Assembly (NCBI RefSeq): GCF_000144915.1
Contig: NC_014374.1
Coordinates: 1 to 64,000, forward strand
Length of the DNA stretch: 64,000 bases
DNA from: Acidilobus saccharovorans 345-15
GTDB taxonomy: Archaea; Thermoproteota; Thermoprotei_A; Sulfolobales; Acidilobaceae
Reading direction: 5' to 3'
The position numbers and the translations under genes are program-made. Position 1 is the stretch's first letter, and each line of letters starts with the position of its first letter. Below, one piece after another: positions 3,597 to 22,481 of this stretch. Below the pieces are notes generated by a model. It saw nothing but the letters and a program-made list of their open reading frames with translations, was not told the origin of the DNA and did not search any database.

Positions 3597-4582
3597 AGGG
3601 GCTCACCCCCGGCGTAGCATGAGTACGCCTGCCCTGACCTGAGCGAGGAGGCCAGCCTGTACGCGTACTCCCTGAGCGCCTCAGAGTACGTCATGGGCCT
3701 GTAGGCGCCGAGGGCCTGGTCCTTGAGCCTGTTGAAGAGCGCTTCAAGCAGAGCCCTCCTGGAGCCCACGTCGAGCAGCCCTCCCTCGAGCCTCGGCCTC
3801 CAGCCAGACGTCACCAGCGCCACCAGGGGCTCGTCAACGACTGGCGCCCTGAACTGCTCAACGTAGTCATAGACCAGCACGGGCCTGCCGCTCCTGTCCA
3901 CGTGGAGGAAGCCGGCGTAGGGGTCGAGGCCCGCCAGCAGCAGGGCCCTGAGGCCAAGGGAGTAGAGCACCGCGTACATGTAGTTGAGGCACGCGTTGAC
4001 AGGGTCGTCGCCCTCCTGGTCCCTGCCGTCGAAGCCGAGGTCCCTGGGCAGCAGCGAGGCCACGAAGCCCCAGTACTCCCTCGCGGCCGCGGCCTCAAGC
4101 TCGAGGAGCCTGGGCCTGAGGTCGTTGGGAGTCCCCCTCAGCTCCATGACTTCCCTGGCCAGCTCCCTCATCCTTGAGACGGTAGACTTAACGGTGGCCC
4201 CGGCCCTCAGGGCGAGCCTCCTCAGCGTTGACGCCTGGGAGAGCACCTTGCAGGCGACCAGGGACGAGGCCATCGAGCCGCCGAGCTCCCCTGAGGCTGC
4301 CATGTACTGGGCCCTCCTGGTCTCAGGCGTCCTTGAGTAGTGGCTCATGTAGGTCACCGAGACTGGCATGCCTCCCCTGTCGAGGACCACCATCTCGACG
4401 CCCGCCGCTGCCATGAGCCTGAGCGCCCTAGATGTCACGCTCACGCCGCCAGAGGCGACCACCACGAGGTCCACCTGGGAGAGGGGCACCTCCTCCCTCC
4501 TGCCGTCCTTTGACCTCACCACGAGGCTTGAGCCAGAGGCGCCCAGCAGGAGGCCGTAGCCAGTGAGGAGCAGCGCCCTCAA
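3593..4582 (-). CDS. cas1: Cas1 integrase
   Basis: 329 residues. The N-terminal beta domain is followed by the helical catalytic domain. The three metal-binding positions are visible: E163 (in ELEAAAAREYW), H227 (GFLHVDRSGRP) and D239 in the motif DYVEQFRAPVVD. Cas1 catalyses insertion of prespacers into the leader-proximal repeat. It shares 4-bp overlaps with csa1 and cas2. Together with the spacer-like insertion in crn1 (see 18072-18158), it is the likely enzyme behind that event. Confidence 0.96.
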   Translation of the reverse strand: MRALLLTGYGLLLGASGSSLVVRSKDGRREEVPLSQVDLVVVASGGVSVTSRALRLMAAAGVEMVVLDRGGMPVSVTYMSHYSRTPETRRAQYMAASGELGGSMASSLVACKVLSQASTLRRLALRAGATVKSTVSRMRELAREVMELRGTPNDLRPRLLELEAAAAREYWGFVASLLPRDLGFDGRDQEGDDPVNACLNYMYAVLYSLGLRALLLAGLDPYAGFLHVDRSGRPVLVYDYVEQFRAPVVDEPLVALVTSGWRPRLEGGLLDVGSRRALLEALFNRLKDQALGAYRPMTYSEALREYAYRLASSLRSGQAYSCYAGGEPL

Positions 4583-5472
4583 ACGGCCGCCACCCCACTC
4601 GAGGCCAGCTCCTCGGCCATGGAGTCCCTGGCCTCCAGGAACCTTGACCTTGGGCCCTCGCCCAGCAGGAGGCCGTGGACGCTGAGCGAGGGCGGGGAGA
4701 GGCTAACTGAGACGAGGAGGCCGTAGTCGAAAGGCACCTCGAGCTGCGACTCAAGGGCCATGGCGTAGCCGGCCATCTGGACCGCGTGCCAGTCCCTGGC
4801 CTGGCCCACCTTGAACTCCACGACGGCGCCGCTCATCAGCGCGTCGACCCTCAGCCTCCTCGCCAGGCCCAGCGGCGTCCCGTCGACCACGTACTCGGAG
4901 AGCCAGGGGGCCCAGGAGCCAGTTGCCGAGCCTCCCAGGAGCCTCTGCAGCGTGGCGTCCCCGGCGAGCATCACGGCGAGGGCCCCCTGGAGGTCCCTGA
5001 GCCTCTGGGCCTCGCCCGCGAGCCCGAGCTGGGAGGCGACTTCGGCGTAGGCCCTCGACTCCATGACCCTCCTGGCGGCCTCCCACGGCTCCACGCCGCG
5101 GCCCACGAGGCCCTGGAGGCCGTAGGCTACCCTCCTGAAGAGCTCGTGCACTGCGGCCCCGAGGAGCATCGCCGCGTCCTGCCTGGGCCCCCTGAGCCTC
5201 GCCTCGAGGGCCTCCCTCGGGCAGCAGCTGTAGTAGGCAACCTCGGCCACGCCGAGGCCGGCCCTGTACCTGGGCCTGACGGGCGGCCTGTCCCAGGCCC
5301 AGCCCCTCAGCTCAGAGGGGACGCTGAGCTGAAGACCGTGCAGGTACTTGAGCTCCTGCCTGAGCAGCTGCAGCACCCTCTGGCACCCCAGGGGGAGGTG
5401 GGGCGAGGAGCTCTTATTGATGATCTGAACACGCTCTGGGATAATCCCAATTGTTAAGTGACAAACGTACAT
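4579..5472 (-). CDS. csa1: Csa1 (Cas4-like) adaptation protein
   Basis: Up to 297 residues. The body (ELRGWAWDRPPVRP, GLGVAEVAYYSCCPREAL) is typical of Csa1, the second Cas4-like nuclease of type I-A adaptation operons. The nuclease core shows as RLRVDALMSGAVVEFKVGQ followed by WHAVQMAGYAMAL. The frame opens at ATG 5472, but a TATA-like AT-rich stretch covers 5468-5485 and the family usually begins closer to VLQLLRQEL, so the real start may be the GTG at 5376, which has GGGGTG upstream. It is the first gene of the block; its upstream region holds the divergent leader 2. Confidence 0.85.
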   Translation of the reverse strand: MYVCHLTIGIIPERVQIINKSSSPHLPLGCQRVLQLLRQELKYLHGLQLSVPSELRGWAWDRPPVRPRYRAGLGVAEVAYYSCCPREALEARLRGPRQDAAMLLGAAVHELFRRVAYGLQGLVGRGVEPWEAARRVMESRAYAEVASQLGLAGEAQRLRDLQGALAVMLAGDATLQRLLGGSATGSWAPWLSEYVVDGTPLGLARRLRVDALMSGAVVEFKVGQARDWHAVQMAGYAMALESQLEVPFDYGLLVSVSLSPPSLSVHGLLLGEGPRSRFLEARDSMAEELASSGVAAV

Positions 5473-5773: not shown

Positions 5774-6382
5774 GAAACCACGAGATGGTGTTGCAACGAA
5801 GACCAACAGACTCAGGCTCTGAGTCAGGAAGCCTAAGGAAACCACGAGATGGTGTTGCAACAACTCCGTTACGTCAATGTCTACCGTGATCATGATGTCA
5901 GCCGGAAACCACGAGATGGTGTTGCAACGGTTGAACGCTACTTGTGCTAGAAAGTCGTCATCGTTTTCAAGAAACCACGAGATGGTGTTGCAACTAGAAC
6001 GTTAGCGGAATGACGCCAAGCTGGAATGCCGTGGAAACCACGAGATGGTGTTGCAACTTGCCCTGGCGTGGACCTTAGAACCCTGGTGCCTTGAGGAAAC
6101 CACGAGATGGTGTTGCAACCTGGGGAGCATGCCTAGGGAGAAGGCGTTGGCTAAAATAACCCTGGAAACCACGAGATGGTGTTGCAACTGAGGCATGGCC
6201 TCAGGGTCAAGGCGAAAGAAAGAAATGAAGGAAACCACGAGATGGTGTTGCAACTAGTGAAGTCCTTCAGTTCGGCCAAAAAAGCGCCATCAGGAAACCA
6301 CGAGATGGTGTTGCAACGTCTCAATGAGGTGTTGCAGTAGCTTCACGTCATTCCGTGCGAAACCAAGGAATGGTGTTGCAAC
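5774..6382 (+). CRISPR. CRISPR array 2, rightward, 10 repeats
   Basis: Repeats of 24 nt start at 5774, 5838, 5905, 5971, 6034, 6096, 6165, 6231 and 6294 and are identical (type B: begins GAAACCACGAGATGG, ends GTTGCAAC). The tenth, at 6359, is a hybrid: its first part is GAAACCAAGGAATGG as in type A, its end GTTGCAAC as in type B. A further decayed copy lies at about 6427-6450 (GGCAACCGCGGAATGATG...). Spacers are 38-45 nt. The leader is on the left, so the hybrid repeat is the oldest end. The array points at the 3' end of cmr3. Confidence 0.97.
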
Positions 6383-6579: not shown

Positions 6580-7452
6580 TCAGAACTCCATCACGGAGCC
6601 CCAGCCCCTCTCAGTGCAAAGCCCCACAGGCCCTTTCACGTCTACCTTAACCCCTGGCATGACCGCAAGTGCCATCGGCAGCCTCCTGCCGTTATCAAAC
6701 CCTAACGAGAGCAGCCTGTAGATGACGGCTGTGCACTCCCTGTCCCCCTCCTTAGTCTCCGCCTTAACGGGCGTCGCGGTCGCCTGGTTTTTGTCCCACA
6801 CTATCTTGTTATCATCAACTACGTCAACTATGGCAGGTGAAATCAAAACACTCCCTAGCCCGAGGGCGCCTTCCTTTACCTTGATGTCCTTTATGACCTC
6901 TATCTTAGCTGGCCTGGACTCGCCTCCAAAGGCGCCAATGGAGTTGTTGAGCTTTAAGGTCTTGTCATAGGCCTCGTCGTCATAAACTTCGACCAGCACG
7001 CCGTACCTCGTCGGACCCTCGCCTAGGATGTCCCTGGCTATCAGGCCTAGGTCCACGTCCCTCTCCATGTATATGTAGTTCTCCTTGGCGCCCTTGGTGC
7101 CCTTGTCAAGAGCTATGCCTATCTTCTTGATGTAGTGCCTGTCCTCCACCTTATAAAGCCTGAGCGACTCGCCTGAGGGGCAGAGCATGGCCCTGCCCTT
7201 CTTTGTAAACGAGTAGGCGCAGAGGTAGGACCCCCTGCTGCCCTCAACGTAGAACATGGGGCCCCTGAATCTTGGAGCGTCGCTGCCGAGGCCATTGACT
7301 ATGTAGGCGAGCTTGAGGAAGCCGTAGATCGTTGAGGGCAGCGGCATGGCCTCAAAGTAGCCCTGGTACATGCTGCCGCTCAGGAGGACCGAGCTCAGGC
7401 CTCCCCACCTGAAGACCGCGGGCGTCAAGGGCCTTATGAGCAGGTAGGTCAT
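6580..7452 (-). CDS. cmr3: Cmr3, type III-B effector subunit
   Basis: 290 residues, RAMP superfamily (Cas5-like). Cmr3 pairs with Cas10 at the base of the Cmr complex and holds the 5' handle of the crRNA. Visible family marks are the N-terminal LIRPLTPAVFRWGG, the middle FGGESRPA and the C-terminal glycine-rich CTERGWGSVMEF. It is the last gene of the cmr operon, 6 bp after cmr2, and its stop faces the distal end of array 2. Confidence 0.92.
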   Translation of the reverse strand: MTYLLIRPLTPAVFRWGGLSSVLLSGSMYQGYFEAMPLPSTIYGFLKLAYIVNGLGSDAPRFRGPMFYVEGSRGSYLCAYSFTKKGRAMLCPSGESLRLYKVEDRHYIKKIGIALDKGTKGAKENYIYMERDVDLGLIARDILGEGPTRYGVLVEVYDDEAYDKTLKLNNSIGAFGGESRPAKIEVIKDIKVKEGALGLGSVLISPAIVDVVDDNKIVWDKNQATATPVKAETKEGDRECTAVIYRLLSLGFDNGRRLPMALAVMPGVKVDVKGPVGLCTERGWGSVMEF

Positions 7453-7458
7453 CCCTCG

Positions 7459-10350
7459 TCACCTCATGTAGTCCACCGCAAGCACCACGCTGTAGAGCCT
7501 GTCCCCGCTGCAGACGGAGCTGCCGTCCCTTGAGGGCAGACAGGAGGACACCGAGGCCAGGTCGCTGACGTGCTTTTTCACCTTGCTCACGTCCGAGTTC
7601 CCCACCTTGTTCCTCTCTACAACTTCTAGCGCCAGCATGGTGTAGACGTCCTTTGCGGAGCCGTTGCCCATGGCCATCTCCATGTAGTCCTTAATGCCGA
7701 AGTAGTCGTGTATAAAGCTAACGCTTAGCCTCTTGCTGCTGATCGCGTCGTACAAGTCCCTCACGGCCTCCAGCAGCTGAGTGTTAAGCCTGCCGGCCTC
7801 GCTCAGCTTAAGCGTCGACACCAGCCACTCCAGGCTCCTTGCGATCCCCCTGCCGGAGTAGATGAAGAGGACGTCCTTCTCCTTAACGTGGTCCTTCTCC
7901 TCAAGGAGCTCGCTGGCGGTGCTTAAGGACAGCGGCAGTGGGTCCTTGTAGTGCGCCGGGAGGATGACGTAGCTCCTGCCATAGTTCGCCAGGGCGTCGA
8001 CCGGCATGTAGCCCTTTCCATCGCCCAGGTACTTAAAGCCGCTCACCGCGCCGCCCGAGAAGCCCCAGTAGGCCTTCCTGGTCTCCTCGACCGCGTCAAG
8101 CGGCACCAGCTCGCCCCTGTACTTGGTCGGCGAGAACGCCAGAAGGTCGTCACCGCCTACGTAGACGGGGCTGGCCCTCCTGTCCGTGAGGATCCTTATG
8201 TCGAGCACCGCCTGCGCTGTCAGGGCCCTTGACAGCGCATATGCATAGGCGGGAGTTATAGGTATCATGTATCTGGTCTCCGTGCCACCCCCGCTTGACA
8301 CGTCAAAAGTGCACGGCGGCTCCTCGCTCGCGGCCTTCTTCACATGGTCCAGGGACCTCTCGTAGCCCTTATCCTCGCTGGCCTCATTGTCCTCGTGGGC
8401 CAGCCGCTCCCTGACCTCTACTATCCTTTTGACCTCTTCAGACAGCTTCTTTTCGTCCTCCAGGCGGATGGCCATGGCAGTCTTTATGTAGTCTTCTATT
8501 GAGAAGCATTTGCCGTCGCCCTTCCTGAGCAGTCCGCTCCAGTAGCCCTTCCCCATGAAGTCCCCATCGGCCTTCAGTACTGCAAAGTAGGCGTCCCCAT
8601 ACTTCCTTATGATCTTCCTGAGCTCCTCCTCGTTCTTTATGTGATTAGCGGCCCTGTCCTTAATGAGGCTATACACGGTCTCGCAGGCTTCCCTGGAGCC
8701 GCCGTAACACTTCTCGTAGAGCTCAGCCAGGTACGGGCCCCTGACGTTCTCATTCCCAACGTAGGGCCCGAGGACCTCGTCCACGTTGAGCATTGCTATT
8801 TCAGAGGTTGACGGGAACCCGCGCCTCACCCCGCTGCCGACCAGGAGATCCATATCTTTGAGGACTTCGATGACCACGCGGCCGTCGTTGAGGGACCTCT
8901 TCAGGGCACAGTATGGGCACAGCCTGTCCTCCTCTTCCTCCCCCTCCTTCACGTCCCTGAGCCTCCTGAACTCAGCACCTGTCCGCCACGAGACGTAGCT
9001 CACGGCCGCTGGGAGCATGCCGCACATGGTGCAGAGGTGGTAGTCCCCCGAGCTGGTCAGGGATCTAACCGTGTCAGCCAGGTCGACGCCGTACATGTAC
9101 TTGACCTTTATCTTAAGCTCCTCGCTGTTAATGCGGTGCAGTAGGTACTCAAAGAACAGGGAGTACTCCACGGAAACGTACTGTCCGCTGCAGCTAAGGC
9201 TCCCCTCGGCAAGCCCTCTGATCGCGTCAGAGTACTTTTTAAACGCTTCACCAACGTCCAGGGCAACTACCCTTGGCCTGACCGGGGGCGTCTCCTTTGC
9301 CTTATCTATGTAACTCTTAAGGGGGCCGTCCCTTAGGAGGCCATCTATACCGGTTCTCTTAAACGCCTCCGACGCCACCTGCTCCCAGGCCTTCTTGAAG
9401 TTATCCCTCAACTGCCTCTCAACGTCATCGCGCTGCTCAGGCAGCAGCAAAACGACCTTGTCCCCCATCATTGACGTCAAGGGCCCGTCCTGAAGGCCAG
9501 CGTACTTCCTCCCGAGCTCAACGATTCTATCTCTCAGACGCTTGTCCTGAACCTTATTGGCGAGCCACGCTATGAAGAAGTGGTTGAGGCTGAGCTCTGG
9601 CCTGAGGACCACGTCGGGGCCGTACCTCTCCACGAAGGGCTCGATGGACCTCCACAGGAGGAGCGACGTGAGCCAGCTGGAGGCCCACAGGTCGCTGGTC
9701 TTCCTGCTAAATGATATGAACTCCTGCACCGAGGGGAAGTCTATCACGGCCACCGATCCATAGAACTGGGGCTTCGTGCCGTCGCACCTAAGTATGTTCA
9801 GCATGGCGGCCGTGGCGGTGGCGTGGTCAAATATCGTGTGCGTCGGGACCCTAGTGTCGGCCACTGGAACCCAGCAGGGCCCGTTCGGGGCGCAGGGGAA
9901 GTGCTCGTACCACAGGAGCGGGGCGAGGTAGTAGGCCACGTGATACTTCAGTCCCCCGGCATTCATGACGAGGCCAGAGAGCTCCCTGGCGTATTCTTTG
10001 ACTTTGTTAGCATCTATGTTGGGAGGTACTTTAATCTTGTACCAAGGCGCAAATAGGTTCTTCTTAACAATCTCTTCTGCCCTTGCCCCCGCCTCCACAT
10101 CCTTCAATAATAATGATATTACCCACCTGTCGAGCGAGGACGCAAGGTGGTCCGCTAAGGCCACCGCCGGTGGGAAGTTTCCCTGGACGGGGACGCCCAT
10201 CATGGAGAGCAGCTCCTTGGCATCATCCTCATGGCCTCCCTTGTCAGCAAGTATCGCCCTGGAAGGGCTCTTGGAGACTATCCACGCCTTCCACGGCGGG
10301 TCGTGGAAGTATGCTATGAGCTTCAGCTCTAACAGGTCACCTGACTGCAC
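7459..10350 (-). CDS. cmr2: Cmr2/Cas10, type III-B HD nuclease and cOA synthase
   Basis: 963 residues. The N-terminal HD domain begins with AYFHDPPWKAW (H16-D17) and has LADHLASSLDRW further on. A zinc site with two CxxC pairs (LCTMCGML, LCPYCALK) lies in the middle. The second Palm domain carries an intact cyclase motif, VYVGGDDLLAF, near residue 731. On target RNA binding, such proteins cut single-stranded DNA and make cyclic oligoadenylates; both sites look functional here. The start is a GTG with a strong GGAGGTGAGG upstream, overlapping cmr6 by 14 bp. Confidence 0.95.
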   Translation of the reverse strand: MQSGDLLELKLIAYFHDPPWKAWIVSKSPSRAILADKGGHEDDAKELLSMMGVPVQGNFPPAVALADHLASSLDRWVISLLLKDVEAGARAEEIVKKNLFAPWYKIKVPPNIDANKVKEYARELSGLVMNAGGLKYHVAYYLAPLLWYEHFPCAPNGPCWVPVADTRVPTHTIFDHATATAAMLNILRCDGTKPQFYGSVAVIDFPSVQEFISFSRKTSDLWASSWLTSLLLWRSIEPFVERYGPDVVLRPELSLNHFFIAWLANKVQDKRLRDRIVELGRKYAGLQDGPLTSMMGDKVVLLLPEQRDDVERQLRDNFKKAWEQVASEAFKRTGIDGLLRDGPLKSYIDKAKETPPVRPRVVALDVGEAFKKYSDAIRGLAEGSLSCSGQYVSVEYSLFFEYLLHRINSEELKIKVKYMYGVDLADTVRSLTSSGDYHLCTMCGMLPAAVSYVSWRTGAEFRRLRDVKEGEEEEDRLCPYCALKRSLNDGRVVIEVLKDMDLLVGSGVRRGFPSTSEIAMLNVDEVLGPYVGNENVRGPYLAELYEKCYGGSREACETVYSLIKDRAANHIKNEEELRKIIRKYGDAYFAVLKADGDFMGKGYWSGLLRKGDGKCFSIEDYIKTAMAIRLEDEKKLSEEVKRIVEVRERLAHEDNEASEDKGYERSLDHVKKAASEEPPCTFDVSSGGGTETRYMIPITPAYAYALSRALTAQAVLDIRILTDRRASPVYVGGDDLLAFSPTKYRGELVPLDAVEETRKAYWGFSGGAVSGFKYLGDGKGYMPVDALANYGRSYVILPAHYKDPLPLSLSTASELLEEKDHVKEKDVLFIYSGRGIARSLEWLVSTLKLSEAGRLNTQLLEAVRDLYDAISSKRLSVSFIHDYFGIKDYMEMAMGNGSAKDVYTMLALEVVERNKVGNSDVSKVKKHVSDLASVSSCLPSRDGSSVCSGDRLYSVVLAVDYMR

Positions 10351-11089
10351 CGCTCCTCACCTCCTCAAGCTCAACCTGAAGGTCGAGCTCACCATATCCC
10401 CTCGTGGTCCTCCTGCCCCAACCGGACACGGAGGAGTAAAAGATCGCCTGGAGGAGGAGCTTGAACGCGTCCTGGCCGCACGGCTCAAGCTCATCCCTCC
10501 TAAAAACAACAAAGCCTTCAAATGTGACGCCAGAGTTGACCGCGACAAACTTAACTGGGACCGGGTTAGCGTTGTACTCGTTGAAGGGCCTCCTCTCGGG
10601 GCTGTAGTGCGGGTTTATTATGTCATATACAAGTAGCCCGCCCTGCGAGGCCACCGGGTAGAAGTCCGTGAACGTCACCTTGCCCTCGGCCTTCCTGCTG
10701 CCAAAGACGCAGTCAGCCATTTTATCATCGCCTGAGACCTCGAGGAAGGCGTCCCTCACTATGCCCTTCGCCTGCGACCCTGGTATGTAGGGGACGTCGA
10801 TTATGAGGTCCCAGGCCAGCGGGACCTCAGTTATGAAGTAGATGGGGCTCCACCCGCCCATGAACTTCCTCTTGGTGGTGAGCTTCAAAGATATGAAGTC
10901 CATGCCCGAGCTGACGATCGATTGCCTGACCTCGTTTACGTACCCCCTCGCGCGGGACAGGTCCCAGCCCTTCACGAGGCCCTCGAGGGACATCGACCTG
11001 GCGTCCTCCCTGGGGCTGCCCTTAAGCATCTCCTGCTGGTACTTCAGGAGCGCACCAAGCAGCCTGTTGCCCCCCTGCTGGGCCGCCAT
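10337..11089 (-). CDS. cmr6: Cmr6, type III-B effector subunit
   Basis: About 250 residues, RAMP family (Cas7-like). Cmr6 caps the 3' end of the Cmr filament together with Cmr1. Visible marks: VPYIPGSQAKGIVRDAFLEV, CVFGSRKAEGKVTFTDFYPV and DIINPHY, followed by a glycine-rich GWGRRTTRGYGEL. I chose the ATG at 11089 because GAGGTGA sits 6 bases upstream and it clears the cmr1 stop; the open frame begins 12 codons earlier. Confidence 0.93.
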   Translation of the reverse strand: MAAQQGGNRLLGALLKYQQEMLKGSPREDARSMSLEGLVKGWDLSRARGYVNEVRQSIVSSGMDFISLKLTTKRKFMGGWSPIYFITEVPLAWDLIIDVPYIPGSQAKGIVRDAFLEVSGDDKMADCVFGSRKAEGKVTFTDFYPVASQGGLLVYDIINPHYSPERRPFNEYNANPVPVKFVAVNSGVTFEGFVVFRRDELEPCGQDAFKLLLQAIFYSSVSGWGRRTTRGYGELDLQVELEEVRSGAVR

Positions 11090-11094
11090 ATGGC

Positions 11095-12315
11095 TCACCT
11101 CGTCACGCGCTTGGCCCCACGACACCTAGCCTCGGCAGCCCTAGCCACGGCATCCACTAATTCGCTTATGACATCTCTGAGTTCCTCACCCCTGATCATG
11201 TCGCCCACCTTGGTCACTTCCCCTGAGCCGCTGCGGTGTTCCAGCATGCTGTAGATCTGCTCGTGGTCACGAAGTGAAAGGAACGGCAGGAAGTACAGCC
11301 TGTAGGCGTTGTTAACCCTCACGGGCGACGCCACCAACATTGACTGCCTGCGGCCGGGCTCCTCGGACTCCTCACTGACCAGGAAGTAGCCGGTGCTCTT
11401 TATCCGCCTCGGCAGCCCCAGGAGCCAGCTGTGGACCTCCGCGCTTGAGAGCCCGCCCCGCCCCATGACAGACCTTAGGTTGACCTTAAGGAAGGCCTCC
11501 TGAAGGACCCTCAGCGCCTCGTAGCTGTCCCTGGCCGTGCAGTTGGGGACCGCCCTGATCACGTCAGGGCCTTCGCCATCGACCAGTGGGGCAAGGGGTA
11601 CAGCGGATTCCTCCCACGAGTTCTCGGAGCTGCAGCCTGCGACCTCCTTAAACCTGTTGTAGTACAGTCTGAACGCCTCAGTTACGTTGCCGTCCTTTAC
11701 GTACGTGCACAGCTTCTCAATGAACTGGGAGCCCCCGGCCGGGCACTCCGAGGGCGCGAACCTGCCGAAGCCCCTGTTTGCGCCCCTGCCTACGCCCACG
11801 AAAGCCAGGGTTATCAGGACCCCTCCAACTACCAGGTCATCATACCCAGGATCCTTTTCAGCCCGCGACCTGTATATGCTGAGATCCAGGCCCCTGAGGT
11901 TCAAGGGCAACAGGTCGCCCTTTGAAAGCCCGCGCCTGTTGCCTAACAGCGTCAGCTTTACCCTGGGAAGCTGATCAAACTGCTTCGCTACATCGCCTGG
12001 CCCGAGCGTGCTCGCCCTAAAGACGTACCTCGAGACCATCCCGGTGGAGCCCAGGAAGCCGCTGACGAACTTCTCAGCCTCGGAGTAGTCGCTGAGGTCT
12101 CTCGCGCAGAACCTGTTGTAAACGGTCCTGAGGAACCACCGGAGCCTCCCATTAATTTCGTCCTCATCCACTTCCTGCGACGTTCTGGTGCTGTGGTCGC
12201 CTCCCCACCAGGGCGTCGTGGGGGTCAGCCTGAGCCTCGCCACCAGCCTCCTCTCATTGAACAGCCCCAGCGCCCTCATCCTGGCTTCCTTAACAAGGGT
12301 CTCGTCGAGGCTCAC
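11095..12315 (-). CDS. cmr1: Cmr1, type III-B effector subunit
   Basis: 406 residues, two RAMP domains as usual for Cmr1. The first domain shows LRLTPTTPWWGGDHS and INGRLRWFLRTVYN; a glycine-rich loop follows at FVGVGRGANRGFGRFAP. Cmr1 binds near the 3' end of the crRNA at the head of the complex. It overlaps cmr5 by 4 bp (ATGA). Confidence 0.93.
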   Translation of the reverse strand: MSLDETLVKEARMRALGLFNERRLVARLRLTPTTPWWGGDHSTRTSQEVDEDEINGRLRWFLRTVYNRFCARDLSDYSEAEKFVSGFLGSTGMVSRYVFRASTLGPGDVAKQFDQLPRVKLTLLGNRRGLSKGDLLPLNLRGLDLSIYRSRAEKDPGYDDLVVGGVLITLAFVGVGRGANRGFGRFAPSECPAGGSQFIEKLCTYVKDGNVTEAFRLYYNRFKEVAGCSSENSWEESAVPLAPLVDGEGPDVIRAVPNCTARDSYEALRVLQEAFLKVNLRSVMGRGGLSSAEVHSWLLGLPRRIKSTGYFLVSEESEEPGRRQSMLVASPVRVNNAYRLYFLPFLSLRDHEQIYSMLEHRSGSGEVTKVGDMIRGEELRDVISELVDAVARAAEARCRGAKRVTR

Positions 12316-12797
12316 AGGGGCATCGCCTCCAGCACCTTCTTGACCTCCAGGAGGTACTCTGAAAGCAGCCTCTCCTTCGCCAGCGCGAGCTCCTTTAAGG
12401 CTATCCCAAGCAGCGACTTGTAAATCTCCTCCTCGTTGCCGCCAACGCTCACGCTCTCGCCTACCCTGCTGAGCGCGTAGAGTATTATTGCGACGTAGCC
12501 CGCGTAGCCTGCGCCCTCGCTCCTCCTCAGCTCGTCACAGATGGCTGCCTTGACGCCATCATCGAGCTTTGCCTTGCCCGTCAGGTAGCTGTAGATGGCG
12601 CTCACTGCGGAGAACCTCTCTACCTTGGATAGGAAGAACGTGAAGGCCGGCTGGAAGCCCAGGCTTATCATGAGCGACGGGAAGTCCACGGCCCTCCTGA
12701 CTATGCCGGGCTTCGAGTTCGAGCTCCCGCCGCCCTGGCAGCCGGCGGCTATCAGCTTGGTGCCCACGTCGGCCGCGAAGCCCACGAAGTCGCTCAA
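12312..12797 (-). CDS. cmr5: Cmr5, small helical subunit
   Basis: 161 residues, predicted all-helical, the size and position of Cmr5 (Cas11). It builds the minor filament between Cas10 and Cmr6 and holds the target RNA strand. Recognition rests on operon position, size and helices such as PAFTFFLSKVERFSAVSAIYSYLTG and YAGYVAIILYALSR rather than a strict motif. It has an N-terminal glycine- and serine-rich loop (GCQGGGSSNSK). Confidence 0.82.
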   Translation of the reverse strand: MSDFVGFAADVGTKLIAAGCQGGGSSNSKPGIVRRAVDFPSLMISLGFQPAFTFFLSKVERFSAVSAIYSYLTGKAKLDDGVKAAICDELRRSEGAGYAGYVAIILYALSRVGESVSVGGNEEEIYKSLLGIALKELALAKERLLSEYLLEVKKVLEAMPL

Positions 12798-12804
12798 GGA
12801 CAGC

Positions 12805-13701
12805 TCACCTCACCGCGCCGCTGACGGCGCCAGTGCCGCTTACGATGAGCAGCCTCACGAGACCCTTGCCCACGGTCTCCTTGCCCCCTATGAAGAGCGA
12901 GGCCCTGTTAAGCTTGTTGCTGAGCTCTGTCATCACGTCTATGTCCCTGCACTCGTCGTTGCCCCCCATGGAGTCCACGCTGCCCCTCATGGAGTCCAGC
13001 ATGGCGCCAACCATAACCGTGCCCTGGGGCACGTACTCCTCAGTCCAGAGGGCCCTCTCCTTGACGGTCTTCGTCTTATCATCGAGGGCGTTCCTTGTGA
13101 CCCTTACCAGGGACGACTCCACAACCTGCAGCCCGACGTCGTCGTCAAAGACGTAGGCCTTGTCCTTTAGCAGGTACCCCAGAGACCTCGTGTCGACGCG
13201 GCCGCCAAGGACGTCGCTTACGTTTACCGTGTAGGCGTAACGGACCTCCCTCAGCCCCACTGTCACTGTGCCGCCGGCGCCCAAGGCCTTAGGTGGGCTG
13301 ACCCCTACGGTTGACAGGATGTCATAAGCCCTGTTAAGGAGGTACTTCGTGGTCACATATATGTAGCCCTCGGAGAGGCTTGGGGCCGGGTAGAGGAACG
13401 GCACCAGGTCGGTGAACACGAGCCTTCCCATAAATTTAGCCCCGCCCTCGTCAATGTCTGGGCCGAAGGCGCACCTCACTAGCTTATTGTCCTTATCGTT
13501 ACCGCCGCCCTTGTCGTTGGGCTTGCCGCTGCTTGGGGGCGTCAGGTGAAACCTCAGGGCGCCCTTGAAGGAGGAGCCTAATATGACTGGGTAGCCCATC
13601 GAGTCCCTCTGAAATGGAAGGTCAACGAAGCCCGGGGACCTGCCGGAGCCCACGTGAACGGGCGTCACGGCGTAGGCGAGGACCAATAACGAGCCGCCCA
13701 C
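12805..13701 (-). CDS. cmr4: Cmr4, type III-B backbone RNase
   Basis: 298 residues, Cas7-like RAMP. Several copies form the filament along the crRNA and cut the target RNA every six bases. The catalytic aspartate is in VDLPFQRD near residue 27, in the thumb-adjacent loop after VTPVHVGSGRSPG, as in known Cmr4. Further marks are VILGSSFKGALRFHL and CAFGPD. It is the first gene of the cmr operon, starting at GTG 13701, with a TATA box about 45 bp upstream. Confidence 0.94.
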   Translation of the reverse strand: MGGSLLVLAYAVTPVHVGSGRSPGFVDLPFQRDSMGYPVILGSSFKGALRFHLTPPSSGKPNDKGGGNDKDNKLVRCAFGPDIDEGGAKFMGRLVFTDLVPFLYPAPSLSEGYIYVTTKYLLNRAYDILSTVGVSPPKALGAGGTVTVGLREVRYAYTVNVSDVLGGRVDTRSLGYLLKDKAYVFDDDVGLQVVESSLVRVTRNALDDKTKTVKERALWTEEYVPQGTVMVGAMLDSMRGSVDSMGGNDECRDIDVMTELSNKLNRASLFIGGKETVGKGLVRLLIVSGTGAVSGAVR

Positions 13702-13874: not shown

Positions 13875-15467
13875 TTACATATCAAGGCTGAGGCGGCCGC
13901 GCGATGCTTCCCCAGGCGGCGAGCGATGGGCCTTATCGAGATTGACGACCTTAAATAGGGACCTCTTAATGATTTCCATAAGTTTCCCACACGGGATCCT
14001 GCAATCGCCGCAGTCCCCCGAGAGGCAGGCCATGGGTGACCCGTCGCCCCTAACCTTTATCTTGACCGCGTTCTCCAGGATGCCAGCGTGGGCCACGAGG
14101 TTTCTCGCCGTGTATTCATTATTTACGGATGAAGAAGTGTGTCCCTTCAGCTCATAAAGGCACACGCCGTCAGACGCGAGCCGCCCCTTCACCTCATCCT
14201 TGCTGGAGTTAATTGCGTTGACAATGTTATCGTGCTCAATTTCTGTGGTAATCGTTATGCCCAGGCCTCTCCTGCTGTAGTTGTCCGCCTCCCTGGCCAG
14301 CTCGTTCAAGTTAAGGCAGCCGCCCTCAGGCTTAATGGTCGTGCCGCCGGCGAGGGCCAGGTACAGCATAGTCTCGAAGTCCTCGTTAAAGTCAGCATAC
14401 CTCGTGACCTCTACGCTGTCGCCGCCCTGGGTAACCTTCGTCAGCGTGAAGTACTCTTCTACAAAAGTGCTTGCCAGGTCGAGGATTGCGCGCTGCAGCT
14501 GCCCCGCGTCGAGGGCCGCGGCGCTGTAACAGGTAGAGCTGGAGGGGCCGCGGCCCAGGCCCTCCAGCTTCTCCAAGGCGTCCTCCAGAAAGTACGGCAT
14601 CAGGAAGAGGGCACCGACGTTTATTGACGCAGCCGCGGCCGTAAGCGAGGAGATGGCGGCCCTTATCGGCTTCCCGTGGAGCCCCACCAGGGCCCTCACC
14701 ACGTCGCGCGGGGCGCAGCGCCTTGGGGAGAGGAGCCTGGAGGTCCTCCTTGTCGGCAGCCTTATGCTGGGCAGCTGCCTCTGAAACGTCACGCTGAGCG
14801 TCAGCTCCGTCCTATCGTCAACATATGGGTCCAACGCCGAGAACCCCAGCGTCACCGGGACCGCCAGCGAGAGGGCCGAGGCGGCCCCTTGGACGGCCCT
14901 CACAGTCATTACCTGGAGCTGGTTGGGGGCGTTAGTCACGTCTGAGACCACGTAAACAGCGTCATAGTCGGCGGCCCTGAGCTCCAGCAGCTTCCTTGAG
15001 ATGTGATAGGCCGCCATGGCCTGGGAGTCATAGGGGCTGACGTCTATCCTCATGGAGCCGCCCCCGCTGAGCCTGAAGGTGCCCCTCAGCGGCACGGCCC
15101 TGAGCTCCAGGTTATCCTCCTTTATGAAATCTCCCAGTAGCCCGCATGAGTCGCTTGAGCTCTCAACCCCCTCCTCTATGTGCCTCCTCTGAAGACTTAA
15201 CAGCTCGTCCACAGCCTTCCAGTAGGGGCCTGAGGCCATGCCAAGTTCAGCTATAAGCGACTCCGGCACGAGACCGAGCACCCTTACCACGGCGTCTGGG
15301 AACATCCTCCTGAGGTAGACGTAGGTGACCGCAGCCGAGGGCACCTTGCCCTTAGACTCCACCCTGCACGAAAACCTGCCCCTGCGATCCTGGGCCAGGT
15401 AGGTGGCCGGCCTCAGGTACTTGACCGAGCCCAGGGGGGCCACTATGAGGGTCAGCGCCTTGCCCAT
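13875..15467 (-). CDS. csx1: Csx1-family CARF-HEPN ribonuclease
   Basis: 530 residues. The N-terminal half is a CARF domain that would bind cyclic tetra-adenylate made by Cas10; VSDVTNAPNQLQV stands where Csx1 proteins have their DxTHG-like signature. The C-terminal HEPN domain holds the catalytic RxxxxH as RNLVAHAG (R455, H460). Four cysteines near 484-496 (ACLSGDCGDCRIPCG) may bind a metal or form disulfides. When activated, such enzymes degrade RNA without sequence specificity. It lies upstream of cmr4 in the same direction and downstream of array 3, which is also read leftward. Confidence 0.9.
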   Translation of the reverse strand: MGKALTLIVAPLGSVKYLRPATYLAQDRRGRFSCRVESKGKVPSAAVTYVYLRRMFPDAVVRVLGLVPESLIAELGMASGPYWKAVDELLSLQRRHIEEGVESSSDSCGLLGDFIKEDNLELRAVPLRGTFRLSGGGSMRIDVSPYDSQAMAAYHISRKLLELRAADYDAVYVVSDVTNAPNQLQVMTVRAVQGAASALSLAVPVTLGFSALDPYVDDRTELTLSVTFQRQLPSIRLPTRRTSRLLSPRRCAPRDVVRALVGLHGKPIRAAISSLTAAAASINVGALFLMPYFLEDALEKLEGLGRGPSSSTCYSAAALDAGQLQRAILDLASTFVEEYFTLTKVTQGGDSVEVTRYADFNEDFETMLYLALAGGTTIKPEGGCLNLNELAREADNYSRRGLGITITTEIEHDNIVNAINSSKDEVKGRLASDGVCLYELKGHTSSSVNNEYTARNLVAHAGILENAVKIKVRGDGSPMACLSGDCGDCRIPCGKLMEIIKRSLFKVVNLDKAHRSPPGEASRGRLSLDM

Positions 15468-15681: not shown

Positions 15682-17312
15682 GTTTCAACACAATCTTATG
15701 GTTTCAGTGTCGAGGATATGTTATAAGCATAGATTTCCTCTTGTTACAACACCATCTCGTGGTTTCGCGGATGTATCACCTAAAGCCGAAGTTTGTGATA
15801 AGGGTTACAACACCATCTCGTGGTTTCTGGATTACTTGCGGCAAACATACTTAGTTTCTACTCTTTGTTACAACACCATCTCGTGGTTTCCCGAGTATGT
15901 TCACGTCCTCTGCCTCAGAAAGGCCGAGCCTTTGTTACAACACCATCTCGTGGTTTCGCAGGCTCTGGAAGGCCATACTGTCCCTACAGAACCCAGACGT
16001 TACAACACCATCTCGTGGTTTCTTTCTATCTGAGGCGTGAGAGCATGGGTGAGAGGGTTTCTCGTTACAACACCATCTCGTGGTTTCGAAGTTTAAGCTA
16101 TTCTTGCTAACACATATCAATCAACTCAAGTTACAACACCATCTCGTGGTTTCAGTTTTTATGAAAAAATCCTTAAAGAACTTGGCCTTTCTTGTTACAA
16201 CACCATCTCGTGGTTTCGCGTTTATTCACGCGACCTGGGGCAGCGCAACAGTGGAAGAGTTACAACACCATCTCGTGGTTTCGCGTCTTTCTTTATAATT
16301 GACCATTCATGAATTTTGTTTTGTTACAACACCATCTCGTGGTTTCGTTGTATACGATAACTACGGGTTCTGGGTCCATCCAACCTTGTTACAACACCAT
16401 CTCGTGGTTTCTACAAACACGTTTGCCTGTTTGAAGAAGCTGGGCCTTATAGGTTACAACACCATCTCGTGGTTTCGTCTCAGAATGAAAGCTCGGAGGG
16501 GACTCCCCAGACTCGTTACAACACCATCTCGTGGTTTCCGAGAGACGTGAGCGAGGTGAGGAATGTGGAGAGCGAGTTGGGTTACAACACCATCTCGTGG
16601 TTTCACGGGGAAAGAAACCATCACCGGAACGGTAGTAGGGGGGAATGAGTTACAACACCATCTCGTGGTTTCGGCTGTTCAGTGCCTGCAGGAGCACCCA
16701 GAGTACTTGGGTTACAACACCATCTCGTGGTTTCGAGGTGCTAAAGAACGGGTTCACATCTGTCGTGGGCCACCCGTTACAACACCATCTCGTGGTTTCA
16801 GGAAGTTCAGTTCGTTGAACTTCTACGACATAATCTTTTGTTACAACACCATCTCGTGGTTTCTAGCCGTTCGGGATTGACGTGGAACGGCTGCGCTCTT
16901 ATGGGGTTACAACACCATCTCGTGGTTTCATTACATCTCAAGATCAGGGCTAACATGGAGCGGTTGGTTACAACACCATCTCGTGGTTTCTATTCATTAT
17001 GGACAAAGCGGTTCAATGTTTACAACAACACCCGTTACAACACCATCTCGTGGTTTCTCGTATGGGTCTTTTTTGGGCTCTACGCATGTTTGGAAAGTTA
17101 CAACACCATCTCGTGGTTTCTCAGCGCTACAAACATGTCCTTCCCAGCTGGCTACATAGGTTACAACACCATCTCGTGGTTTCTAGCTCTTTTTCTTCGC
17201 CTTGCCCCATGGCCCCATGGCCGTTACAACACCATCTCGTGGTTTCTATCAGGAGGTTGCCATCAGCATTTGTTCTGGCTGGGGCTAGGTTACAACACCA
17301 TCTCGTGGTTTC
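15682..17312 (-). CRISPR. CRISPR array 3, leftward, 26 repeats
   Basis: Twenty-five identical 24-nt repeats start at 15743, 15804, 15867, 15934, 15999, 16064, 16130, 16194, 16259, 16323, 16388, 16453, 16515, 16581, 16649, 16711, 16776, 16840, 16906, 16967, 17034, 17097, 17160, 17223 and 17289. On the minus strand they begin GAAACCACGAGATGG and end GTTGTAAC (type C, one base from type B). The oldest repeat, 15682-15705, is decayed and on the minus strand ends GTTGAAAC, like type A. Spacers are 37-44 nt. Two pairs of spacers encode the same short peptides with different codons (see findings). Leader on the right. Confidence 0.98.
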
Positions 17313-17590
17313 CGAGCCATGGGACGCCGTGCCTCGGCCTTAGCCTTCACGTGGCCCGGGGCGGCCCTCCTGTCCCACCACTGTTTTCTGCAGGGGAATA
17401 CTTAAGCCTACTGCCCGCCCTGCGGCCGCTTCCCATGTGAAACATGGGAAGTCGCCATAGGCCTTTAAATTTTCATAATGTTTAGTTAAGTAAAATTGAT
17501 GTTCCCACCGCTCCCACCGGGCAAGGCACTCCCATGTCTCACATGGGAAATACCCGGCTAAGTAGTTTATAAGGTAAAATAACAAAATAA
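17313..17590 (-). promoter_or_regulatory. Leader of array 3 (full length)
   Basis: Homologous to the other leaders in inverse orientation. In transcription direction: TATA box (CCTTATAAAC, about 17563-17572), palindrome at 17529-17549 (TTCCCATGT, three bases, ACATGGGA), conserved TTTTACTTAACTAAAC segment, second palindrome at 17430-17450 (TTCCCATGT, three bases, ACATGGGAA), then TTAAGTATTCC and the GC-rich leader end. The palindromes are 99 bp apart. Confidence 0.85.
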
Positions 17591-18010
17591 CATGTTAATC
17601 ATTATGAAAGGAGGATCCTGTGACTCTATGCTAGACACGGCTAGCAGGCTCGGGACAGCGACGACGGCCCTGTACCTCAGCTCGGGGGCCACGCCGAGGG
17701 TCAGGCACCGACCACCGCTACAGCCCTACGATTTTGGATGGAACCACAGGCCGCAGGGCCTCTTGAGTGGTATTTGTTGAGGGCCTGCGCGTGGAGGAAG
17801 TCCCCAAGTCCTAGGACTCAGGAGGACGCCGTACATGGAGCTCGTGTGGACGTGCACGGCACGCGGGCGTCCTTCAGGGCGAGCCGGGCCTCGCAGGGGA
17901 GCGCGGCCAGGAAGCAGCGCCTGCCGCTAGGGGTCCTGCAAAATAAAGGGACAGCCGCAGGCCCCGCGGTCGTGCAAGGGTTAAATACTCACGTAACCCT
18001 ATGACCTAAG
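17591..18010. other. Gap between leader 3 and crn1, no clear gene
   Basis: Short open frames exist (for example 17738-18004) but their composition does not show the strong codon bias of the neighbours and no family is recognised. The segment may hold remnants of an older gene. Just before crn1, GTTAAATACTC at about 17980-17990 is a plausible TATA box for that gene. Confidence 0.5.
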
Positions 18011-18889
18011 GTGAAGCGGTTGGCCCTGAGGTTCTCCCACCACATGACCGTCGGCACCTCATTCCTGAGGAACGCCTCCAGGTCAGCGGGCCTTATTATA
18101 ACATACAGATTCAACGATACGCTATGGATGAGGTACGCCTCCAGGTCAGCGGGCCTTAGCAGGGAGCAGGCGGAGCTCCTCGAGAGGTGCTCGAGGCTTG
18201 ATGTTGACGCCGAGGACGAGTGCGAGAGGCTCGCGGGGGCCGGCAGGAGCGACCCGCTGCTTGACAGGCTCAGGTCGTACCTGAGCTCAAGTCCCTACGA
18301 GGCCTCAGCGGAGCTGAACTCGCTTCAGCCCTTCCTGGAGGCCGGCATGGTGCAGAGGGTAGTCCTTTACTACTACTCGGACAGCGGGGCGGCCCACCTG
18401 GTGGCCCTGCTCCTGACCGAGTACCTTAAGCGGGCTGGCGTGGCGGCCGAGGCTGTCCCGGCCGGGGAGGGCGAGAGGAACCTGGCCGCGGGGCTCCTGA
18501 ACATAATGAGAGAGGTCGGCTCGAGGGCCCTCAGGGACCAGGGCGAGGGCTACACTATAATGCTCAACATAACCCCCGGCTTCAAGGCCGAGGCGGCCTA
18601 CTTCACCCTGGGCCTCATGCTGAGGAACATAACGGCCCTGGCCTACTACAGGCACGAGGCCATGAAGTCAACCGTTGGCGTGCCGCTGTTGCACACAACG
18701 GCCCTGAGGGACGCGGTGACCTCCCTGAGGGCGAAGGTGGGGGCGAGGCTGGAGGACCTGGACGCGAACGAGCTCGTTACTGTAATAGCGGCCAGGCTCA
18801 ACTCCGGCAGGCTCTCCCTGGGCCCCGTGGTAAAGGATGACCTTGTGTGGGCCGAGGAGCTCCTGGCCGCCTCGGGAATCACTTCGTGA
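18011..18889 (+). CDS. crn1: Crn1-type ring nuclease (APE2256 family CARF protein) with in-frame insertion
   Basis: 292 residues from a GTG start. It has the signature of the crenarchaeal APE2256/Crn1 family: GTSFLRN near the N-terminus (the family has GTSLLTN, with a catalytic serine) and NITPGFKAEAAY (family lysine in the GxKAE motif). Such CARF enzymes cut cyclic tetra-adenylate and switch off Csx1. Residues from about 29 to 49 (IITYRFNDTLWMRYASRSAGL) are an extra 21-residue segment made by a 63-bp insertion with a duplicated flank; without it the protein reads SFLRNASRSAGLSREQAELL. The insertion keeps the frame, but lies just after the active-site strand, so activity is uncertain. The C-terminal 80 residues look like a small helical or winged-helix domain. 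Confidence 0.82.
   Translation: MKRLALRFSHHMTVGTSFLRNASRSAGLIITYRFNDTLWMRYASRSAGLSREQAELLERCSRLDVDAEDECERLAGAGRSDPLLDRLRSYLSSSPYEASAELNSLQPFLEAGMVQRVVLYYYSDSGAAHLVALLLTEYLKRAGVAAEAVPAGEGERNLAAGLLNIMREVGSRALRDQGEGYTIMLNITPGFKAEAAYFTLGLMLRNITALAYYRHEAMKSTVGVPLLHTTALRDAVTSLRAKVGARLEDLDANELVTVIAARLNSGRLSLGPVVKDDLVWAEELLAASGITS
18072..18158 (+). repeat. 24-bp direct repeat flanking a 39-bp spacer-like insert in crn1
   Basis: Exact 24-bp copies at 18072-18095 and 18135-18158 (each starts ACGCCTCCAGG and ends GGGCCTTA) flank 39 bp (18096-18134) that are AT-rich (TTATAACATACAG...). With the five bases TGAGG and one mismatch to the left, the similarity extends to 30 bp. The unit length of 63 bp equals one repeat plus one spacer of the arrays next door. 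Simple tandem duplication does not explain it because the 39 bp (or at least 33 of them) occur only once. The best reading is a Cas1-Cas2 integration outside an array. Confidence 0.7.
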
Positions 18890-19430: not shown

Positions 19431-19723
19431 TGTTATTTTGTTAATTTACCTTATAAACTACTTAGCCGGGTAATTCCCATGTGAGACATGGGAAGTCACT
19501 TGCCCGGTGGGAGCGGTGGGAACATCAATTTTACTTAACTAAACATTATGAAAATTTAAAGGCCTATGGGGGCTTCCCATGTTCCACGTGGGAAGCTGCC
19601 CTGGAGCCGGCGGTAAACTTAAGTATTCCCGTGCAGAGGACAACGGTGGGACAGAGGGGCAGAGGAAGGGGCAGGCCCCTGGCACGGTAAGCGAACATAA
19701 CCTGTATGGTGTCCCAGAGCTCG
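19431..19723 (+). promoter_or_regulatory. Leader of array 4 (full length)
   Basis: Same layout as leader 2: TATA box (CCTTATAAAC, about 19449-19458), palindromes at 19474-19494 (TTCCCATGT, GAG, ACATGGGAA) and 19574-19594 (TTCCCATGT, TCC, ACGTGGGAA), exactly 100 bp apart, with GGTGGGAGCGGTGGGA and TTTTACTTAACTAAAC between them, then AAACTTAAGTATTCC and the GC-rich end. Leaders 3 and 4 form an inverted pair around crn1. Confidence 0.85.
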
Positions 19724-22481
19724 GAAACCAAGGAATGGTGTTGAAACTCTCTAAATACAATCGGCTTCTGATCCTTGGTAAATGCGAAACCAAGGAATGG
19801 TGTTGAAACCCTCATGTTCATTGGGATATAAATTGACAACTATCCACGGGAAACCAAGGAATGGTGTTGAAACGCTTCATGCCGATAAGGCCGGCTGACC
19901 TAAATTGGTTAAGAAGAAACCAAGGAATGGTGTTGAAACCATAGAAAGATAGTTTCAGGGGTTTAAATTTCCATAGGTTCAGGAAACCAAGGAATGGTGT
20001 TGAAACTGACGTTAGCGTGAACGGGGACAGGATAAGCATAACTATAAGAAACCAAGGAATGGTGTTGAAACACTAGAACTTTATCCATGTCCACAAACCA
20101 TGTTATGGCCGAAACCAAGGAATGGTGTTGAAACCGAGAAACCAATTAACTTAGACGCATACAAAAAGATAATTAACGAGTCAAGAAACCAAGGAATGGT
20201 GTTGAAACTAAGTATCTTCAAAGCCCTTATAAAACTTGCTACCCTCTTGAAGAAACCAAGGAATGGTGTTGAAACACGCAATCATAGCCTTTGATGTTAT
20301 CGCCACAGCTAACTAGAAACCAAGGAATGGTGTTGAAACCCTCCACTGGCCTGTAGGTATAGTTTGCGAAGTGGTATGCGAAACCAAGGAATGGTGTTGA
20401 AACCAAAAGTCCGTGTGGTCTTCCCCCTCAAAATCGAAATATTGCGAAACCAAGGAATGGTGTTGAAACTCTGCACAGTGCACACTGAACCTGTTGGCCT
20501 TTCCGCCAGAAACCAAGGAATGGTGTTGAAACTCTGAACAAACTTGCGGGTTTAACATTAACGAGAAATACGACAGTGAATAATAATATGAAACCAAGGA
20601 ATGGTGTTGAAACCTGCTATTATTTCGCTTGCATAATCTGTTGGCATACCCCTGTGGGAAACCAAGGAATGGTGTTGAAACATCAGCGTAAGCTGTTCAT
20701 ACTTCCTCTGTGCAATTACAGTCGAAACCAAGGAATGGTGTTGAAACACTTTCCACTCATATCTATTCTGAACGTCAACAATATACAGAAACCAAGGAAT
20801 GGTGTTGAAACAGGTTATACTGCCCCCAGCGGCTTCGGCCTCCCCAGCGAAACCAAGGAATGGTGTTGAAACCCATAGGGGAAGCTCCACTTCTTTCACA
20901 AACTCTGCGGAAACCAAGGAATGGTGTTGAAACGCAGCTTTGCCAGTTCTCCCTCAATAGTGTATTCATATGAAACCAAGGAATGGTGTTGAAACTTTAT
21001 GATATTAACGGTAGGCGCCGTGAGGACTATAGAAACCAAGGAATGGTGTTGAAACCTTGCTATCACGTCCCTAACGTTCATGCCCCTGGTCTTGAAACCA
21101 AGGAATGGTGTTGAAACTGGGGCCATTCTCTGCTATCTCATACACTTCTTTCATATGAAACCAAGGAATGGTGTTGAAACACTTGACCTCGTAATGATAT
21201 TCGTGGTCGGCATAGTGGGCTAGAAACCAAGGAATGGTGTTGAAACGCCTTTTCGGCGCTCACTTCCTCTTCCACTGTTGTGCCGCTGTAAAGGAGTCGT
21301 TTACGTCATACACCTTTGCAGTCAGAACTTCCTCTTCCACTGTTGTGCCGCCGAAACCAAGGAATGGTGTTGAAACGTAGGGACCAGTAATGACCGTGCT
21401 TCAGGGAGGAATAGGAGGAAACGAAACCAAGGAATGGTGTTGAAACAGTTCTTCAAACATCGCAAAAATAGCTGAGGAAAACGTGAAACCAAGGAATGGT
21501 GTTGAAACTTTATATAAAACCTGGTGAACTACATGGCTACTCGTAAGCTTCTGAAACCAAGGAATGGTGTTGAAACATCCTAATGACGTCCATTGGCACT
21601 CCAGGGACTTCCTCAAGAAACCAAGGAATGGTGTTGAAACTAGATATTTGGGCTCACGAAAATCTTTCTGTCATGAAGTAGAAACCAAGGAATGGTGTTG
21701 AAACTGCTGGATGCCGGTAGCGGGCCCCTTGGCACTTCTACGGTAGAACAGAAACCAAGGAATGGTGTTGAAACACTACGCCGTGGAGGCAATGTCCTTT
21801 GCTCTCGAGAGAAACCAAGGAATGGTGTTGAAACGTCCTCACCAGGCCCACAAGTTCAATTGGTGTTTTAGCGAGAAACCAAGGAATGGTGTTGAAACAC
21901 TTCCTGCGCGCTCACGCTCTCTCGCCTCGCTTTTCTGTGGAAACCAAGGAATGGTGTTGAAACTCTTATTTCTTCGCCGCCCCAGGCCGCTACTATTTCC
22001 GCGGAAACCAAGGAATGGTGTTGAAACCAGGTGAAACAAAATATAATATGTCAATTGCGTTGTTTAGGAAACTAAGGAATGGTGTTGAAACATGCACCAC
22101 AAGGTAGTATCCTTCGTCGAGATACCTACTCGAAACCAAGGAATGGTGTTGAAACTCACTGTTTCCCTCGCACGGGTTGGGTAGATTCCACGGAAACCAA
22201 GGAATGGTGTTGAAACTGTGGCAAGCTTTCTCCTTTGCTTTATCTCGCTTATTGTCTTTGCGAAACCAAGGAATGGTGTTGAAACATGGCGTTCTGCGCA
22301 AGAATGCCGTGCTGTGGTATGTCATAGGAAACTAAGGAATGGTGTTGAAACACCTCCCTCTTCAATTCTTCTTCCAGACTCTCCCCCACCTGGAAACCAA
22401 GGAATGATGTTGAAACTGGAAAGCGGTTTGTCGAAGAATATGATAAGTATGGCGATGGAAGCCATAGAATGATGTTGAAGT
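19724..22481 (+). CRISPR. CRISPR array 4, rightward, 42 repeats
   Basis: Type A repeats (begin GAAACCAAGG, end GTTGAAAC) start at 19724 and recur every 60-70 bp up to 22393, with a decayed final copy at 22458-22481. Single-base variants occur only towards the old end (22068, 22328: GAAACTAAGG; 22393: ATGATG). Most spacers are 36-46 nt. Exceptions are 50 nt (20135-20184), 57 nt (20533-20589) and a 106-nt interval (21247-21352) with an internal 25-bp duplication, where a repeat would be expected at 21288. The leader is on the left. Confidence 0.98.

Follow-up and report, generated by a model that had tools for sequence, protein, structure and literature searches.

Two neighbouring CRISPR spacers of Acidilobus saccharovorans probably derive from acrIIIB1-family anti-CRISPR genes

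Two neighbouring spacers in a CRISPR array of Acidilobus saccharovorans 345-15 encode the signature motif of a viral inhibitor of type III-B CRISPR systems, AcrIIIB1. Judging from their sequences, both spacers probably originated in acrIIIB1-family anti-CRISPR genes carried by elements resembling rudiviruses or lipothrixviruses, and their crRNAs, antisense to the gene, would be loaded into a Cmr complex. The analysed window is the first 64 kb of the single-contig genome (1,496,453 bp) and contains four CRISPR arrays with 91 complete spacers. Both focal spacers lie in array 3 (15682–17312, − strand, 25 spacers). The + strand of spacer 1 (16864–16905, 42 nt) reads, after an initial T, AGC CGT TCG GGA TTG ACG TGG AAC GGC TGC GCT CTT ATG GG and encodes SRSGLTWNGCALM in the sole fully open + frame; its crRNA is the reverse complement. 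The + strand of spacer 2 (16930–16966, 37 nt) reads, after an initial AT, TAC ATC TCA AGA TCA GGG CTA ACA TGG AGC GGT TG and encodes YISRSGLTWSG, which carries the same motif. Copies of the repeat GTTACAACACCATCTCGTGGTTTC at 16840–16863, 16906–16929, and 16967–16990 bound the spacers exactly. The coordinates, the shared peptide SRSGLTW(N/S)G, and the spacer order given in the original prediction, made from the letters alone, proved right.

The right flank of array 3 (17313–17592, − strand, outer limit approximate) shows homology to the flanks on the left of arrays 2 and 4 and on the right of array 1, and since this homology is common to the four arrays, the flanks were identified as leaders. 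Array 2 (5774–6382, + strand, 9 spacers) has its leader on the left. The 3′ handle of the array 3 repeat is GTTGTAAC on the − strand. Together with the leader flanks and the degenerate distal repeat at 15682, this handle indicates that array 3 is transcribed on the − strand, right to left, with newer spacers toward the right. Spacer 2 is thus the newer of the two, as had been claimed. The further claim that the neighbours were captured one after the other held for adjacency and order, but adjacency does not strictly prove successive capture because intervening spacers could have been lost. Several other features of the arrays were recorded. Array 1 continues past the record start, where it has six further spacers; at window positions 1–1050 and genome positions 1496055–1496453, where the array crosses that point, its distal repeats change from ..TTCCTTGG.. 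to ..TCAGATGG... The leaders of arrays 3 and 4 face each other with a CARF-domain gene (18011–18889) in between, and contain repeated palindromes of the TTCCCATGT...ACATGGGAA type at 17430–17560 and 19460–19600. A 106-bp "spacer" of array 4 (21247–21352) contains a near-exact internal direct duplication (..CTTCCTCTTCCACTGTTGTGCCGC..) and has CAACAGTGGAAGA in common with the array 3 spacer at 16218. Arrays with the same repeat were not found in three relatives within the genus.

Over the stretch that spacers 1 and 2 share, 17 of 29 nt are identical, and the match spans the entire overlap. Among the nine shared codons, eight of which are degenerate, third positions differ in seven, first positions in three, and second positions in two, confirming the earlier observation that the codons differ at nearly all silent positions. 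The Ser and Arg codons change codon box, codon choice differs throughout, and the codons of spacer 1 are GC-richer than those of spacer 2. The pair is the top-scoring one among all pairs of the 91 spacers (BLOSUM score 46). This score was reached in about 1% of 896 shuffles of the whole set when all pairs were considered (at least 10 shuffles at 46 or more; p ~0.01), and in 2 of 896 when only neighbouring spacers were considered (p ~0.002). Two other pairs of spacers also share peptides antisense to their crRNAs. In array 3, the spacers at 16673–16710 and 16991–17033 have the peptide AVQCLQ in common, encoding AVQCLQEHPEYL and AVQCLQQH(P), with no viral match of note in INPHARED or IMG/VR. The spacers at 473–515 (array 1) and 22028–22067 (array 4) both encode LNNAIDIL with synonymous differences only, and gave no convincing viral match. 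An origin of the focal spacers from the host itself was rejected, since within the host genome the motif was confined to the two spacers and it was absent from the other genomes of the order (98 genomes).

A composite of both peptides was compared by tblastn with 50,697 phage records. All 19 hits fell on one site, in a hypothetical protein of 240 residues that Sulfolobus rudiviruses encode (YISRSGLTFNGC), with 75–92% identity over 12 residues. Since the E-values of 1–4 were unconvincing alone, the match was checked by further routes. A PHROGs scan with the composite returned only phrog_6092 (E=0.0077), a hit that depends on the composite, as each short peptide singly gave nothing in PHROGs or Pfam. 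The rudivirus gene found by tblastn is itself a member of PHROG 6092, whose homologues extend across Rudiviridae and Lipothrixviridae and include SIRV2 gp48, which is acrIIIB1 (PMC11065993). The signature motif of the family is C..Y.S[RNH]SG[LM]T..GC, and its 12-residue window ranks first of 229 in conservation in the family alignment. A coding pattern for the motif matched 18 loci among the 2.9 million contigs of IMG/VR, and 18 of 18 were AcrIIIB1 homologues. When the 91 spacers were compared in six frames with 13 crenarchaeal virus sequences, the focal spacers ranked first and second, at the same site; the 99th percentile of shuffled spacers in this panel was 47, so that the panel scan is insufficient alone and the family-specific tests suffice. 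In a scan against the family only, the focal spacers scored 50 and 47, and the maximum among 3000 shuffled spacers was 43. Likewise, they scored 10.9 and 9.3 bits against the family HMM, and the best of 5721 scored shuffled spacers reached 5.1.

Wherever the spacers extend over an invariant position of the family (Y, S, S, G, T, G, C), they agree with it. Both spacers encode the motif in the form YxSRSG[LM]TxxGC, and their differences from SIRV9 (W for F, S for N) sit at family-variable columns; known AcrIIIB1 homologues have F, Q, R, K, S, V, or T where the spacers have Trp, and the targeted viruses are known from spacer-length pieces only. A sequence search of the PDB found no homologue. In a confident AlphaFold2 model of gp48 (pLDDT 90, pTM 0.84), the motif is placed in a loop between strands, and a Foldseek search with the model gave no significant fold match. 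The identification is based on 11–13 residues per spacer and is corroborated by the occurrence of two spacers, the family-specific scores, and the strand. A chance origin, in which nine identical residues would be encoded by coincidence in two unrelated spacers of 40 nt, could draw on the approximately 1% of shuffled spacer sets that reach the pair score. It is nevertheless very improbable, because the two spacers, taken independently, point to the same codons of a single virus family and outscore every shuffled control in the family tests, and the Y and Cys extensions also match on either side. Two further spacers were noted as weak AcrIIIB1 candidates, neither significant once corrected for 91 spacers: 16347–16387 in array 3 (VVYDNYGFWVHPT, 3.1 bits, a value that the null reaches in about 4 of 5721) and 22092–22131 in array 4 (SRYLDEGYYLVVH), which resembles the C-terminal YLLVHP.

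The protospacer search in viral databases that had been proposed with the original prediction yielded no exact protospacer. In blastn searches of INPHARED phages and PLSDB plasmids, no near-exact protospacers were found, and scans of IMG/VR, INPHARED, and plasmids revealed no near-identical protospacers of the focal spacers; the best spacer-to-gene identity was 22 of 29 nt. Pattern hits for SRSGLTW(N/S)G in IMG/VR and in bacterial and archaeal genomes were judged to be chance from reading frame and context, and the last IMG/VR pattern matched three loci. No rudivirus or lipothrixvirus infecting Acidilobus was found in the collections or literature searched. Acidilobus viruses appear to be missing from the collections, which makes the absence of protospacers uninformative. 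A class-wide genome search for the AcrIIIB1 family, run without a positive control, found none. When natural spacers were compared with SIRV2 gp48 across 214 genomes of the order, short matches were obtained, and 0 of 15 examined lay inside a repeat array.

The original prediction read the pair as repeated capture of one site in diverged viruses. Two captures at one site of viral genes that are homologous but diverged are well supported, and the gene can be assigned to the AcrIIIB1 family, but separate viruses are unproven because SIRV1 has two copies of the gene. An internal repeat within one viral protein was also looked for as the source of both spacers and was rejected, as the motif occurs once in each of the 17 homologues checked. 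A single virus with two tandem diverged acrIIIB1 copies could have given both spacers, so that two viruses would be unnecessary; in SIRV1 the adjacent copies gp40 and gp41 match at 18 of 30 nt over the motif, much like the 17 of 29 nt for the spacers. Two such paralogues would account for the pair equally well, yet we consider this source rather unlikely, since most viruses have one copy (PMC11065993) and codon choice diverges all along the two spacers, with spacer 1 the GC-richer. Two diverged viruses are thus the preferred source. Both spacers would have been taken at the codons of the signature motif, and the encoded peptides would remain alike because the motif is under the strongest protein-level constraint, with the DNA drifting silently beneath it. 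The nucleotides contradict the idea that such spacers are selected because viruses are unable to alter the target. Since 12 of 29 bases differ with the protein kept, the site is free to change at that level, and protein constraint gives a CRISPR target no protection. Given how crRNAs pair with their targets, neither of two spacers that differ this much should serve against the target of the other.

A laboratory precedent exists for spacers against this gene. S. islandicus LAL14/1 infected with SIRV2M gained the spacer Y433 against the acrIIIB1 transcript, and Y433 alone gave complete resistance to wild-type SIRV2 (PMC9682418). The sequence of Y433, obtained from primers in PMC9682418, maps exactly to gp48 nt 116–158, where it encodes SGMTQEGCVQVMQ. 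Aligned on the motif, Y433 shares 37 nt with the equivalent of spacer 1 and 25 nt with that of spacer 2, and the strand is the same. Y433 in strain CR1Y433 therefore resembles the focal spacers in its target transcript, codons, and strand, and in its type III-B host. In contrast, Y433 was acquired in the laboratory from a virus already without another Acr, whereas here two spacers stand in the array of a sequenced genome, in another genus and against other viruses, and their protective effect is inferred from Sulfolobus.

Three independent captures (the two spacers here and Y433) share one strand and fall in a 55-nt stretch of a gene of approximately 720 nt, which would fit an acquisition hot spot in which sequence or PAM density draws the adaptation machinery to the motif. 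In gp48, 7 of 27 CCN-licensed antisense protospacers overlap the motif, because NGG, and with it CCN PAMs, is provided by its conserved glycine codons. The three captures are only suggestive as hot-spot evidence. The pair was noticed because the motif is the most conserved part of the gene, where two captures stay recognisable as identical peptides, and a capture from another part of the gene would go unseen. As 26% of the licensed sites lie on the motif, the position of Y433 is unremarkable. For the PAM check proposed earlier, CCN-licensed sites do overlap the motif in gp48 and Y433 has CCA at the PAM position, but the 3′ bases of spacer 2 (TG followed by Y, the next codon being non-Gly in all known homologues) misfit a CCN PAM. 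The hot spot put forward in the original prediction was not demonstrated; it is possible but unnecessary, and we regard it as improbable.

The host carries the inhibitor's presumed counterpart beside array 3. A complete Cmr (type III-B) set, Cas10/Cmr2 with Cmr1 and Cmr3–Cmr6, adjoins the array at 6580–13701 on the − strand. Cas10/Cmr2 (7459–10350), Cmr6 (10337–11125), Cmr1 (11095–12315), and Cmr4 (12805–13701) were identified by profile matches. Cmr3 (6580–7452) was weak in NCBIfam and clear in PADLOC (E=1.9e-18), and Cmr5 (12312–12797) was recognised by PADLOC (E=1.4e-81) and fell below the curated cut-off in another profile search. The − strand also encodes a Csx1-like CARF-HEPN ribonuclease (13875–15467), Cas6 for crRNA processing (1241–2173), and an adaptation module of a Csa3-like regulator, Cas4, Cas1, and Cas4/Csa1 (2208–5472). 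For type I(-A) Cas7/Csa2 (DevR), neither PF01905 nor TIGR02583 had a match in the whole genome; both detect in Methanocaldococcus jannaschii, the positive control. RAMP-domain hits in the genome occur only within the Cmr cassette. Since no type I Cas7 was detected and RAMP proteins are confined to the cassette, type III-B is the sole interference module detected.

Type III interference requires a crRNA complementary to the target mRNA. As array 3 is transcribed from the − strand and the acr peptides are encoded on the + strand, both crRNAs would be antisense to acr mRNA. Among the spacers in general, an antisense excess was not significant (36 against 30, judged from open frames). Bound to Cmr complexes, AcrIIIB1 prevents III-B from acting against middle and late genes and does not block targeting of early ones (PMC10681719), and acrIIIB1 (SIRV2 gp48) is expressed immediately after infection (PMC11065993). 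We therefore propose, with Sulfolobus as the guide, that Acidilobus viruses may carry an acrIIIB1-family gene that is expressed early, and that the host may be protected against them by these crRNAs. The crRNAs would load into the neighbouring Cmr complex, the early acr transcript would be cut, and Cas10 and Csx1 would be triggered before the inhibitor builds up, so that the inhibitor would be bypassed.

A second anti-type-III gene appears to be represented in array 2. The − strand of the spacer at 6120–6164 encodes RVILANAFSLGMLP, which is the motif at the N-terminus of DUF1874 (AcrIII-1/Crn2 ring nuclease family, PF08960), and its crRNA is on the + strand, so that the peptide is antisense to the crRNA, as for the focal spacers in array 3. 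The matching DUF1874 starts are KVYLANAFSINML in SIRV2 gp37 and RVYLANAFSLNMLP on a contig of a genome of the same family (L151), the latter identical to RVILANAFSLGMLP at 12 of 14 positions. Against the DUF1874 family (SIRV2 gp37, STIV B116, L149, L151, and L152), the spacer scored 56, and the best of 3000 shuffles scored 40. In the panel of 13 virus sequences its score was 44, and only the comparison with its own family reveals it. Early expression has been described for STIV B116 (PMC7213978). PF08960 had no match in the host genome, where the encoded peptide occurs only in this spacer, and no protospacer was found. The target, known here from 14 N-terminal residues alone, might be an anti-CRISPR of a virus or else a Crn2 of cellular type on some other element. 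In another genome of the same family, a run of short ORFs beside metabolic genes (approximately positions 2000–10500 of L162, G136:C54) resembles an integrated mobile element and includes a gene for a DUF1874 protein (MGRVYLANAFSPSMLP).

Whether acr genes were struck by luck bears on how these spacers are to be interpreted. Under random sampling without selection, most spacers would stem from a single virus group with genomes of about 35 kb. A birthday-type estimate for 91 spacers and genomes of 30–40 kb gives 1.4–1.8 overlapping same-strand pairs, and the two further candidate peptide pairs among the spacers agree with this. On the other hand, for ordinary rudi- and lipothrixviruses, 23–40% of random 40-nt windows score at least 47 against the panel; only two spacers reach 47 here, and both lie in an acr gene. 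About 1% of recognisable windows fall in acr genes (6 of 565), yet the only clearly matching spacers strike acr genes. Since the window scan covered 61–78% of each genome, the panel contains related viruses from the same families, and the two spacers may be non-independent, no p-value is claimed. Random sampling is conceivable but short of likely. Either acr-directed spacers have been preferentially retained, or Acidilobus viruses share with known viruses little beyond mobile counter-defence genes.

A more speculative reading, less probable than not, is that in this host, where type III-B is the sole interference module detected, CRISPR memory has been selected against early anti-CRISPR genes, with AcrIIIB1 struck twice, AcrIII-1 once, and possibly more. 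If true, such spacers would still work against inhibitor-carrying viruses and would constitute a natural anti-anti-CRISPR memory. LAL14/1 is without natural spacers against SIRV2 early genes, and the study that described Y433 asks why (PMC9682418); array 3 looks like a natural case of such early-gene spacers. It matches the same codons as Y433, in another genus and in a genome where only type III-B interference was found. In addition, comparison of spacers at the protein level can name targets missed by nucleotide searches. The proposal predicts that undiscovered Acidilobus viruses carry homologues of AcrIIIB1 and AcrIII-1, and it raises the testable question of whether selection favours spacers against the inhibitor of the very system that uses them.
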